Assembly (NCBI GenBank): GCA_017510335.1
Contig: JAFWNM010000013.1
Coordinates: 124,001 to 188,000, forward strand
Direction of reading: 5' to 3'
Source: Paracoccaceae bacterium
Lineage (GTDB): Bacteria > Pseudomonadota > Alphaproteobacteria > Rhodobacterales > Rhodobacteraceae
Length of the DNA stretch: 64,000 nucleotides
Under the pieces are notes generated by a model. It did not search any database, was not told the DNA's origin, and saw only the letters and a program-made list of their open reading frames with translations. Below are positions 13,522 to 47,845 of this stretch, in pieces; within the stretch, counting starts at the first letter, position 1, and every line of letters begins with the position of its first letter. The position numbers and the translations under genes were made by a program.

Positions 13522-13690
13522 CCATGCCCCCTCTGTCCTGTGCGCCTGAGATCGCTATCCCTTCGGCGGGCGGCCAAAGCTGGCGCGCCTCTCTCCAGAG
13601 TCCGTGTGCAGACCGGTCCTTTTGCCTGAGAGTTTACCGGGGCGGTTGCTCCTTCGGCCCTAGTTGTGAAACCAGCGTCTCCCGTATCTG
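13522..13690 (-). promoter_or_regulatory. Tandem glycine riboswitch
   Basis: In the leader of gcvT on the minus strand two copies of the glycine aptamer core can be read. The first has CCGAAGGAGCAA, then AAACTCTCAGGCAAAAGGAC; the second has a CTCTGGAGAGAGGC stem, GCCGAAGGGATAG, ATCTCAGGC and AGGACAGAGGGGG. These are the conserved core elements of the known two-aptamer class. It sits about 60 bases before the gcvT start; the short gap likely holds the expression platform. Confidence 0.93.
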
Positions 13691-13698
13691 CGCCCTTT

Positions 13699-15257: not shown

Positions 15258-16244
15258 ATGCCCACACAACGCCTGAGTGTTGTCGTAACGCGACGCCTGC
15301 CCGACGTGGTCGAAACGCGCCTGAAAGAATTGTTCGACGTCACGCTGCGCGATGACGACACGCCCATGACCCGCGACGAGCTGGCGCAGGCCATGCGCAG
15401 CGCTGATGTGCTGGTGCCCACCATCACCGACTTGATTGATGCAAGCCTGATGGCGGGCGCGGGCGAACGGCTGAAGCTGATTGCAAATTTCGGCGCGGGC
15501 GTGGACCATATTGATGTGCAATCCGCGCGCCAGCGTGGCATTCTGGTGTCCAACACCCCCGGTGTCCTGACCGAAGACACTGCCGATATGGCGATGGCGC
15601 TGATGCTGGCTGTCACGCGCAAAATTCCGCAGGGCCTGCAGGTCATGCAAACCGGCGGATGGCGGGGGTGGTCGCCCCTGGCCAATCTGGGCACGCGTAT
15701 TGGCGGCAAGCGTCTGGGCATTCTGGGCATGGGCCGCATTGGTCAGGCCGTGGCGCGGCGCGCGCAGGCGTTTGGCATGCAAATTCACTACCACAACCGC
15801 CGCCGCCTGCGCCCCGAGGTTGAGGAAAAACTGGAAGCCACATGGTGGGAAAGTCTGGACCAGATGGTGGCGCGCATGGATGTGATTTCCATCAACTGCC
15901 CGCATACGCCATCCACCTTTCACCTGCTGAATGCGCGCCGCCTGAAATTGCTGAAACCGACGGCGGTGGTCATCAACACGTCACGCGGCGAAGTCATTGA
16001 CGAAAACGCCCTGACACGCGGATTGCGCGCCGGTGAAATTGCAGGCGCCGGGCTGGATGTGTTCGAGCATGGCAATGAGATCAACCCACGGCTGAGGGAA
16101 TTGCCCAATGTGGTGCTGCTGCCGCATATGGGGTCGGCCACACTGGAAGGGCGCGTTGAGATGGGCGAGAAAGTCATCATCAATATCAAGACCTTCGCTG
16201 ACGGGCACCGCCCACCGGACCAGGTGTTGCCGTCCATGCTGTGA
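15258..16244 (+). CDS. D-2-hydroxyacid dehydrogenase (glyoxylate reductase-like)
   Basis: A 328-residue NAD(P)-dependent dehydrogenase. The dinucleotide loop is GILGMGRIGQAVARRA; the catalytic set is Arg in NTSRGEVID, Glu in the DVFEHGNEIN segment and His in LLPHMGSAT. The family reduces 2-oxoacids such as glyoxylate and hydroxypyruvate to D-hydroxyacids. With glcDEF also in the window, glyoxylate reduction is a reasonable guess. A GAGGTG ribosome site precedes the ATG. A phosphoglycerate dehydrogenase role is less likely because no ACT domain is present. Confidence 0.9.
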   Translation: MPTQRLSVVVTRRLPDVVETRLKELFDVTLRDDDTPMTRDELAQAMRSADVLVPTITDLIDASLMAGAGERLKLIANFGAGVDHIDVQSARQRGILVSNTPGVLTEDTADMAMALMLAVTRKIPQGLQVMQTGGWRGWSPLANLGTRIGGKRLGILGMGRIGQAVARRAQAFGMQIHYHNRRRLRPEVEEKLEATWWESLDQMVARMDVISINCPHTPSTFHLLNARRLKLLKPTAVVINTSRGEVIDENALTRGLRAGEIAGAGLDVFEHGNEINPRLRELPNVVLLPHMGSATLEGRVEMGEKVIINIKTFADGHRPPDQVLPSML

Positions 16245-26950: not shown

Positions 26951-27027
26951 CCATAGACCTTCGGTTCAGGGGGTGTTCAGGCAATATCGCATGGCATGAT
27001 GGCCAGAAAATGGCAATCCCGGCCCTG

Positions 27028-43289: not shown

Positions 43290-43331
43290 AAAAAAAAAAA
43301 ACCGCCGCGCATGGGCAAACCATGGCGGCGG
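43290..43331 (-). terminator. Strong intrinsic terminator after the 37-residue gene
   Basis: A 12-base-pair stem with one bulged G (CCGCCGC-G-CATGG against CCATGGCGGCGG) and a GCAAA loop, with twelve T following on the minus strand. It ends the unit that starts upstream of the small membrane protein. Confidence 0.92.
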
Positions 43332-43403
43332 CAGTCAGGGTCAGGGAACGCGGGCGGCACGGGACGGTGCACTGATCGCGCGGCGGACTGACCCGCAGGC
43401 AGT

Positions 43404-43517
43404 TCAGGCAAAAAGCGGCAGATGAAGCGTGGCAAGAACCAGAACCGTCAAAGCAAGGCCCCCGGCCAGGTCTTGCCAAAACCCATGGCGGTCAGATCGG
43501 AACTGAAAGCGGAACAT
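43404..43517 (-). CDS. 37-residue single-span membrane protein under an SOS-type promoter
   Basis: A complete small gene: GGGAGGG ribosome site nine bases before ATG, 37 codons, and a strong terminator about 75 bases after the stop. The product has a basic N-terminus ([16 protein letters not shown]) and one hydrophobic span ([20 protein letters not shown]), so it should insert in the inner membrane. Its promoter overlaps a perfect GAAC-N7-GAAC LexA-type box. Size, topology and control resemble SidA, the SOS-induced 29-residue division inhibitor of Caulobacter, though I see no clear sequence match. It lies just after recG. Function is inferred only. Confidence 0.8.
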
Positions 43518-43547
43518 GACACCCTCCCTCTGCTGTGTTAATGATTT

Positions 43548-43578
43548 GTTCGCATTTGTTCTGGAACCTGTCAAGAAC
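43548..43578 (-). promoter_or_regulatory. SOS (LexA) operator and promoter
   Basis: GAACCTGTCAAGAAC (43564-43578) is a perfect GAAC-N7-GAAC box, the alphaproteobacterial LexA consensus. On the minus strand it contains TTGACA, a perfect -35 box. A second GTTC-N6-GTTC pair (43548-43561, spacing one short) falls where the -10 would be. Transcription would run into the 37-residue gene. Confidence 0.72.
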
Positions 43579-43590
43579 AAAATCGGAACA

Positions 43591-45681
43591 TCATCCGACA
43601 GAAAGGTATTTGATCGCCTTGTCCTGCTCCATCAGCCATAGGGCTGTTCTGGCGGCCTGCCCGCGCGGGCTGCGCAATTCGGGGTCATCGGCCAGCAGTT
43701 TACGCACATCCGTTTGCGCAACCGCCATCAATGCCGCCTGTCGTTCCATATCAGCCACGCGAAACCGGGGCAGGCCCGATTGCGCAGTGCCGATCAAATC
43801 ACCCGCGCCGCGAATTGCCATATCTTCTTCGGCAATGCGAAACCCGTCTTCGGTGTCGCGCAGCAATTTCAGGCGGCGCGCGGCGGTGTCGCCCAGCGGG
43901 GCCTCATACATCAGCAGGCATGTTGACGCCGCGCTGCCGCGCCCCACCCGCCCGCGCAACTGATGAAGCTGCGCCAGACCGAAGCTTTCGGCGCGTTCGA
44001 TCACCATGATCGACGCATTGGGCACATTTACCCCCACTTCAATCACGGTGGTCGCCACCAGAAGCTTGGTGCGCCCGGCAACGAAACCGGCCATGGCCGC
44101 GTCCTTTTCGGCGGGGGGCAACTGGCCATGCACCAGCCCGACAACCCCTTCGCCCAACGCCGCGCGCAAATGCTCGAACCGCGATTGCGCGGCGGTCAGA
44201 TGCACCAGTTCCGATTCCTCGACCAAGGGACACACCCAATAGGCCTGACGCCCTTCTGCCATCGCCTGGCGCAGATGCGCCACCACTTCGTCCATGCGCG
44301 CGGTTGACACAAGCGCGGTCTGGACCGGCTTGCGCCCCGGCGGTTTTTCATCCAACACCGACACATCCATATCCCCGTATTGCGCCAGCGCCAGCGACCG
44401 CGGGATGGGTGTTGCCGTCATGACCAGCACATCCGCGCCCGCCCCCTTGGCCGCTAGGGCGGCACGCTGCGCAACACCGAAGCGGTGCTGTTCATCGACA
44501 ACCGCAAGGCGCAGGTCGGAAAACTCCACCCCTTTCTGAAAAACCGCATGCGTGCCCACCAGAATTTGAATGCGCCCTTCGGCCAGCGCTGCAAGCTTTT
44601 GCGCGCGCTCGGATGCTTTGTCGCGCCCGGTCAGCAGCGCAAGCGTCACCCCCGCCATATGTGCCAGCGGCTGCAGGCTTTCCAGATGCTGGCGCGCCAA
44701 TATTTCCGTGGGGGCCATCATCACGCCCTGCCCGCCTGCCTCGACCGCGACCAGAAGCGCCATCAGCGCAACAAGTGTCTTGCCCGCACCAACATCGCCC
44801 TGCAACAAGCGGTTCATACGCAGGGGCGCGGCCATATCCGCCGCGATTTCGGCAATCGCGCGGCGCTGTGCCCCGGTGGGCGCATAGTCCAACCCCGCCA
44901 GAACACGGTTCTGCAACCGCCCGTCCCCCACACTGACGCGCCCTGCCTTGCGCCTTTGGCGCGCGCGCGCCAATGCAAGCGTCATCTGATGGGCGAAAAA
45001 TTCGTCATAGGCCAGCCGCGCGCGCGCCGGGGCAGATGGCAGGACATCGGCCAGCGTGGCGGGGCTATGCACAGCAACAATCGCACTGTGCCAGTCCGGC
45101 CACCCCTCGCGCGCCAAAAGGGCGGGATCAATCCATTCTGCCAGATGCGGCGCGCGGGCAAGCGCGGCCTGTGTTCCCTTGATCAGCAATTTTTGCGTGA
45201 CACCGGCGCATAGGGCATAGACAGGTTCCGCCGCAGGCAGGTTTTGCGCGTCATCGGGATGCAGCACATGATCAGGATGCACCATTTGCGCGACGCCATC
45301 GAACAATTCCAGCTTGCCCGACACCAAACGCCGTTGCCCTGCAGGCAGAAGCTTTTGCAAATACTCGCCCCGCGCATGGAAGAACACCAGTTGGAAATCC
45401 TGCGCATCATCGCGGACATGAACCCGGTGCGGGCGGCCCCGCCCAGATGGCGGCTGATGGGTCATCACTGTCACTTCGACCGTGGCAATACCGGGATAGT
45501 CCATGCCCCGGATTGTGGCGCGGCGCGTCCGGTCCACAAGCGCATGGGGCAGATGAAACAGCAGATCGCGCGGGGTTTGCACATTCAACGCCGCGAAATT
45601 CCTGGACGTTTTGGGACCAATTCCGTCAAGGGTTTCCAATTCCGCAAAAAGCGGGAACAGAATTTCAGGGCGCGCCGACAT
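43591..45681 (-). CDS. recG: ATP-dependent DNA helicase RecG
   Basis: A 696-residue helicase that remodels stalled forks and branched DNA. It has an N-terminal wedge domain with LDGIGPKTSRNF, then motor motifs: Walker A LLQGDVGAGKT, DEQH-type box VVDEQHRFGV, VMTATPIPRSLAL, and RecG-specific QLHQLRGRVGRG. It starts one base after ligA stops (TGACATG), so it is translated with ligA. Confidence 0.97.
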   Translation of the reverse strand: MSARPEILFPLFAELETLDGIGPKTSRNFAALNVQTPRDLLFHLPHALVDRTRRATIRGMDYPGIATVEVTVMTHQPPSGRGRPHRVHVRDDAQDFQLVFFHARGEYLQKLLPAGQRRLVSGKLELFDGVAQMVHPDHVLHPDDAQNLPAAEPVYALCAGVTQKLLIKGTQAALARAPHLAEWIDPALLAREGWPDWHSAIVAVHSPATLADVLPSAPARARLAYDEFFAHQMTLALARARQRRKAGRVSVGDGRLQNRVLAGLDYAPTGAQRRAIAEIAADMAAPLRMNRLLQGDVGAGKTLVALMALLVAVEAGGQGVMMAPTEILARQHLESLQPLAHMAGVTLALLTGRDKASERAQKLAALAEGRIQILVGTHAVFQKGVEFSDLRLAVVDEQHRFGVAQRAALAAKGAGADVLVMTATPIPRSLALAQYGDMDVSVLDEKPPGRKPVQTALVSTARMDEVVAHLRQAMAEGRQAYWVCPLVEESELVHLTAAQSRFEHLRAALGEGVVGLVHGQLPPAEKDAAMAGFVAGRTKLLVATTVIEVGVNVPNASIMVIERAESFGLAQLHQLRGRVGRGSAASTCLLMYEAPLGDTAARRLKLLRDTEDGFRIAEEDMAIRGAGDLIGTAQSGLPRFRVADMERQAALMAVAQTDVRKLLADDPELRSPRGQAARTALWLMEQDKAIKYLSVG

Positions 45682-45682
45682 G

Positions 45683-47845
<2,163 letters not shown>

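Follow-up and report, generated by a model that had tools for sequence, protein, structure and literature searches.

A LexA-type microprotein gene of Rhodobacteraceae with a structured 3' region complementary to the ftsZ ribosome site: a candidate SOS division brake

Introduction

The family Rhodobacteraceae includes abundant marine and photosynthetic bacteria, and the literature searched yielded no description of how these organisms stop dividing while their DNA is repaired. SidA of Caulobacter is described as a 29-residue inner-membrane protein that acts on FtsW (PMC4211646). A sequence-only reading of a 64,000-nucleotide stretch of a Paracoccaceae genome (hereafter the window) singled out a 37-codon frame lying between recG and trmFO, which was proposed to encode a tiny SOS-controlled membrane protein and possibly a new division inhibitor analogous to SidA. 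Here we asked whether this frame is a gene, whether LexA is likely to control it, and by what means its transcript could restrain division.

Results

A compact locus downstream of recG

The gene lies on the minus strand, which the sequence-only reading had left unstated. Along this strand, the region 43290-43589 contains, in order, a LexA-type box, a -35 hexamer within a second box, GAAC repeats, a short leader with the ribosome-binding site AGGGAGG, the frame, a 3' untranslated region (UTR) and a hairpin. The coding sequence (43404-43517, stop codon at 43404-43406) specifies a 37-residue predicted membrane microprotein. Its ribosome site, read from the sequence, is at 43523-43529, and many same-genus homologues have GGAGGA at the corresponding position. 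The transcript would end at an intrinsic terminator (43290-43332, minus strand) made of a G+C-rich hairpin and 12 T, the latter visible as an A run at 43290-43301 on the plus strand. The frame, ribosome site, hydrophobic span and 12-T terminator that had been reported for this locus were all found. Upstream is recG (43591-45696, minus strand, putative start).

Distribution, neighbours and selection

A single-protein query matched 10 of 100 family genomes, including the genome of origin, and a GTTC-N7-GTTC sequence was present upstream in 10/10 of these loci. A profile built from these ten members matched 341 of 394 Rhodobacteraceae genomes (E<=0.01) and 36 of 38 genomes of the same genus. Among 385 genomes sampled across the class, the five matches to this profile all belonged to the own family, and none of the 380 class genomes outside the family was matched. 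A second profile (34 members) matched 56 of 80 genomes that had been picked for weak or absent matches to the first. In 24 genomes that at least one of the two profiles had missed, we read 20 recG loci. Twelve of them had a perfect box after recG and, with it, a diverged frame some 37-50 residues long; two (L194 and L196) had a frame and no perfect box, two (L204 and L205) had a possible frame without a perfect box, and L198-L201 had neither. By these frames and the profile counts, the gene is fast-evolving and occurs widely across the family. The sequence-only reading had left open whether frame and box are kept in relatives; both are, the box in 156 of 163 loci as detailed below. Two matches were considered false and were dropped from the 163-locus counts: L095, from a deltaproteobacterial MAG, and L150, a second weak match in G046 with neither box nor recG. 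The promoter alignment (155 loci) also excludes L067, as do the UTR and dN/dS sets.

Placement between recG and trmFO held in part. In 160 of 165 unique loci, recG was the immediate upstream gene, on the same strand. trmFO, counted when it followed the gene within the fetched stretch of each locus, was found in 28 of 30 same-genus loci and in 0 of 135 others. As for recG itself, 27 of 39 alphaproteobacterial genomes outside the family have a probable mfd on the opposite strand within a few kb of it; recG and the probable mfd of the window's genome are on different contigs. A mobile origin of the gene was considered and rejected, as one query protein found no match in plasmids and phages.

Codon-level comparison indicates purifying selection on the frame: pooled dN/dS was 0.25 over 197 pairs, and pN was lower than pS in 34 of 35 disjoint pairs. 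Judged by its distribution, neighbour, box and selection, the 37-codon frame is a real gene, tiny and unannotated and present in most Rhodobacteraceae genomes. It was not described in the literature searched, including passages of PMC6473078; supplementary lists of predicted LexA sites may already name the locus.

A conserved LexA-type promoter

The box on which the SOS proposal had been based, GAACCTGTCAAGAAC (43564-43578; GTTCTTGACAGGTTC on the minus strand), is indeed perfect and contains the -35 hexamer TTGACA (43569-43574, minus strand), which is also a column of the promoter consensus. As stand-alone evidence it was rejected, since GAAC-N7-GAAC occurred three times in the 64-kb window versus 1.42 expected and 16 of 100 shuffles reached three. 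The widely shared box is a different one, GTTCCGATTTTGTTC (43575-43589, minus strand), which overlaps the former, abuts the -35 hexamer on its upstream side and is one base off the recG stop codon. A perfect GTTC-N7-GTTC box was found within 260 nt upstream in 156 of 165 loci, or 156 of 163 after removal of the two false matches, and the background was five boxes in 498 kb on the same strand (0.26% per 260 nt). Because of this conservation against the background, we took the box as real.

Two perfect boxes spaced by 11 nt were seen in only 4 of 163 loci, and in two same-genus loci (L043 and L044) the box of the GTTCTTGACAGGTTC type was perfect and the other box had a 6-base spacer. In 136 of 155 aligned promoters the shared box was followed by TTTAC or TTGAC. 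The consensus of the 155 loci was tttgTTc.caaATGTTCt.AaAAaGTTCTTtACa, followed by approximately 14 less conserved bases and then by TGaGAACAAa..ggcAACaaa. The last element corresponds in the window to the GAAC repeats GAACAAATGCGAAC (43548-43561, minus strand) over the -10 region, which may serve as a second operator.

In the window's genome, recA and lexA carry GAAC-N7-GAAC boxes (GAACATTTAACGAAC and GAACGCGCATAGAAC, respectively) within 70 nt of their starts, and GTTC-N7-GTTC is a described alphaproteobacterial LexA motif (PMC3323433, PMC12700426). Taken together, the conserved promoter box, the boxes of the same class at recA and lexA and the described motif make LexA control of the gene very likely. 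Outside the family, 28 recG loci had no box within 500 nt after recG (the recG end was ambiguous in L234).

A single-span microprotein

Members are about 32-40 residues long (5th-95th percentile, 33-40), and all 151 examined had one strongly hydrophobic stretch (17-residue hydropathy >1.6). Most share the core (F/L)WQDxxGxxxLxxxxxxxLHLP, in which D16, G19 and HLP are conserved; D, one L and P were invariant among 34 diverse members. AlphaFold2 predicted one helix covering residues 10-36 (mean pLDDT 80.4, and only 57 for residues 1-10). These data support the earlier view of a tiny single-span protein, whose membrane location is predicted. The basic head assigned to it did not extend to the family: ahead of the most hydrophobic stretch, net charge averaged 0.06 and was positive in 32% of members. 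The supposed lack of a described protein family was borne out, as the protein had no Pfam match up to E=10 and no significant family match was obtained in Pfam, NCBIfam, PHROGs and PADLOC, where the best protein E value was 0.025 and matches were scattered among single members.

A structured 3' region

The 3' UTR (43302-43403, minus strand; approximately 100 nt) overlaps the terminator hairpin. A terminator was recognised in 130 of 148 homologous loci, and the UTR statistics refer to these 130. Three motifs were strongly enriched over shuffled sequences: CTGCCTG in 99 UTRs (2.4 expected), CTGCCTGCG in 71 (0.6 expected) and CCTGTCCC in 71 (1.8 expected). In the window, CTGCCTGCG is located just past the stop codon (43394-43402, minus strand).

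With the terminator removed, 122 UTRs folded with a mean z of -2.31; the mean for 130 control stretches, taken upstream in the same loci, was -0.59. The window RNA had a z of -3.05 with its terminator (0 of 200 shuffles as stable) and of only -0.68 without it. This region is short in the genus of the window, where eight loci have 26-35 nt ahead of the terminator. Because the hairpins fell out of register in MAFFT alignments, an RNA covariance model was replaced by a partner-swap test, in which each locus's own stem arms were compared with the arms of other loci. It gave z values of 6.7 for a hairpin around CTGTCCC (83 loci), 8.9 for a hairpin around the last CTGCCTG (69 loci) and 12.6 for an outer stem (100 loci). 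A stem score of 5 was reached by the two inner hairpins in only 30% and 35% of loci, and consensus folds of both mRNA and UTR contained only the terminator. By folding and partner swapping, the 3' UTR is best described as a structured RNA. Rfam gave no match in 15 loci, nor at the place of the gene in the window; the only Rfam matches in the window were two adjacent glycine riboswitch aptamers (RF00504) at 13531-13695 on the minus strand.

Complementarity to the ftsZ ribosome site

Immediately after CTGCCTGCG, the window's UTR contains GGTCAGTCCGCC / GGUCAGUCCGCC (43382-43393, minus strand), which is complementary to the ribosome site of ftsZ in the same genome, GGCGGAGTGATC / GGCGGAGUGAUC (ftsZ on L280); of 12 positions, 11 pair, including a single G-U. 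We examined 31 UTR-ftsZ pairs, 21 from genomes among the best protein matches (designated here "Roseobacter-type", a label of this analysis) and ten from same-genus genomes; two further genomes of the genus, G403 and G406, had no ftsZ match and are outside this set. AGGCGGA was present at the ftsZ ribosome site in all 31. The longer CAGGCGGA was found in 21 of 21 Roseobacter-type genomes, 11 of which had CAGGCGGACAG, and the genus had AGGCGGA in 10 of 10 and GAGGCGGAGTG in six. None of nine genomes from other alphaproteobacterial families had AGGCGG within 30 nt of its ftsZ start. On the RNA side, UCUGCCUG pairs with CAGGCGGA (one G-U), and CUGUCC pairs with GGACAG; the pairing covered 14 of 15 bases in G374 and 16 of 17 in G402.

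The UTR-ftsZ match exceeded the shuffle mean in 30 of 31 genomes, with p<0.05 in 14 of 31, and own partners were equalled by swapped ones in 1 of 5000 trials within the genus and 0 of 5000 over all 31 genomes, all p values here ignoring shared ancestry. For eight genus members left after two near copies were dropped, the figure was 8/20000. For the 21 Roseobacter-type genomes alone the swap test was not significant (886/5000), because the ftsZ site hardly varies in this group. G400 was an exception, its match being not above shuffles, and in G415 the matching stretch was the 5' arm of the terminator. Openness differed only slightly between the matching stretch (0.50) and the remainder of the UTR (0.42), and was higher in the former in 21 of 31.

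We also compared ftsZ with other genes. In ten genomes, the controls that reached the ungapped ftsZ score numbered 0/24, 2/31, 0/32, 6/27, 0/29, 9/27, 1/30, 0/26, 5/30 and 6/92. Duplex energies separated ftsZ from same-genome controls less well than ungapped scores did, and by this measure ftsZ did not outdo the average control in G002 or G320 (one G320 control, kept in, was the antisense of the UTR itself). Over the ten genomes ftsZ had a mean z of 2.01, versus a mean of -0.02 (sd 0.37, maximum 0.57) for 12 ortholog groups, a comparison that favours ftsZ in that its starts were set by protein match and those of the controls by a simple calling rule. Of 1017 other gene 3' ends in ten genomes, only 11 matched the ftsZ site equally well (6 of 726 in the window's genome). 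In the window's genome, ftsZ ranked only 25th of 680 as a target of the UTR by duplex energy and 44th of 680 by ungapped score. Overall, the comparisons point to complementarity between the UTR and the ftsZ translation start region beyond chance, which is only moderate in the window's genome and absent in G400.

By eye only, we read five genomes that carry a diverged gene and three that lack it, including G017, in which the ftsZ start was ambiguous; a fourth genome lacking the gene, G008, had no ftsZ match. G056 has no gene after recG (L198) and no profile match, yet it keeps CAGGCGGA at ftsZ; in G054, which also lacks the gene, the ftsZ site is CAGGTAAAC.

Of 352 called genes, 22 had AGGCGG close to the start, and four of these 22 were ftsZ itself. 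With names assigned by eye, others were ddl (L305, L309, L311 and L313), lpxC (L297 and L305), murC (L313) and ftsA (L309). The 3' RNA could accordingly have further targets in cell-wall synthesis and division.

Discussion

A proposed SOS division brake

Of the sequence-only reading, the LexA-type promoter, the tiny single-span protein and the absence of a described family were supported, as was conservation across the family; division inhibition is something that we infer, and this is strengthened by the absence of SulA over cut-off and by the complementarity of the 3' UTR to ftsZ. The SulA profile (PF03846) had no match over cut-off in 149 family genomes, the E. coli control being positive; a single match below cut-off, in G120, had two stops inside. 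We propose that this is a Rhodobacteraceae-specific SOS gene which restrains division via an RNA acting on ftsZ and perhaps also via the peptide, a proposal whose chances of being right or wrong we regard as evenly balanced. LexA bound to the box or boxes over the -35 region would keep the gene off, and RecA-triggered cleavage of LexA would turn it on. The short transcript would then have two outputs. One would be a single-span inner-membrane peptide, with its N-terminus predicted inside by the positive-inside rule. The other would be the structured 3' region, whose C-rich seeds CUGCCUG, CUGUCC and UCCGCC may pair with the CAGGCGGACAG- or GAGGCGGAGUG-like ftsZ ribosome site, so that less FtsZ would be synthesized and division delayed. 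Taken together, promoter, neighbour, peptide and RNA are most simply explained by such a brake. Only tentatively do we advance the fuller version, in which one LexA-controlled transcript carries two independent brakes, one targeting the divisome through a membrane microprotein and one targeting ftsZ translation through a 3' RNA, and has co-evolved with the ftsZ ribosome site across a family in which no SulA was found. As the gene is widespread, its promoter clear, its neighbour conserved and its RNA target predicted, the proposal is directly testable.

Comparison with known systems and other explanations

The nearest parallel to the RNA output is DinR, the 3' RNA of dinI, which represses ftsZ in Klebsiella (PMC10907235). 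In both cases the 3' part of a LexA-controlled small-protein mRNA faces the ftsZ ribosome site, but the protein, RNA and lineage differ; DinR pairing is described as experimentally shown and its pairing stretch as Klebsiella-specific (PMC10907235), whereas the pairing here is predicted and family-wide. If correct, our proposal suggests that SOS control of ftsZ by a 3' RNA arose more than once, and that an ftsZ ribosome site can be shaped by a partner RNA.

SidA is the closest parallel to the peptide, and it provides a rival explanation: the peptide alone may act, as a SidA-like membrane inhibitor of the FtsW/FtsI/FtsN complex, the 3' region being there for stability or as terminator context. 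The size of the microprotein, its predicted single helix and its LexA-type promoter agree with SidA as described in PMC4211646, an alphaproteobacterial protein of similar length (about 30-40 residues for the two) with one predicted membrane span. The codon-level constraint, the conserved D16, G19 and HLP core and the lack of SulA over cut-off also fit a peptide that acts by itself. However, this explanation does not account for the structured, motif-bearing 3' region and its co-variation with ftsZ, and we consider it unlikely. The microprotein was set beside SidA by description only; its profile had no match in the 380 class genomes outside the family. The gene is not filed as a member of either SidA or DinR.

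Alternatively, the product could resemble TisB or DinQ of E. coli, depolarising the membrane and slowing metabolism, with division arrest being secondary. DinQ is likewise a tiny hydrophobic single-span peptide behind a LexA-type promoter, and TisB is named as similar (PMC3567139); the several promoter half-sites found here may reflect tight repression. Mobile toxin-antitoxin pairs, however, would hardly hold one chromosomal place beside recG in 160 of 165 loci or escape the plasmid and phage search made with one query, and this explanation seems to us improbable. A LexA-controlled small regulator of some other membrane process (a protease, a transporter or gene transfer agent release) is a quite doubtful candidate, for although LexA is reported to feed into the CtrA and gene-transfer-agent network in Rhodobacterales (PMC6473078, PMC9638019), no genomic link to such genes was seen, recG being the only neighbour checked and found conserved.

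The proposed brake, with its RNA on ftsZ, would also resemble SulA of E. coli in being an SOS division brake aimed at FtsZ; SulA is a soluble protein, and the family differs in having no match to its profile over cut-off in the 149 genomes. YneA, SosA, DivS and ChiZ are larger proteins than the microprotein. They offer a further likeness, as SOS-induced division inhibitors of other bacteria (PMC4211646).

Other LexA-type boxes

Two additional perfect boxes were noticed. A GTTC-N7-GTTC box at 26964-26978 of the window is close upstream of both a minus-strand frame with a likely signal peptide and a plus-strand frame, and may be there by chance. Elsewhere in the window's genome (contig C30), a perfect LexA-type box at 15872-15886 of locus L347 is located between a frame that, judged by eye, is photolyase-like and a divergent frame with a likely signal peptide that, again by eye, is CAP-domain-like; both frames are candidate SOS genes.
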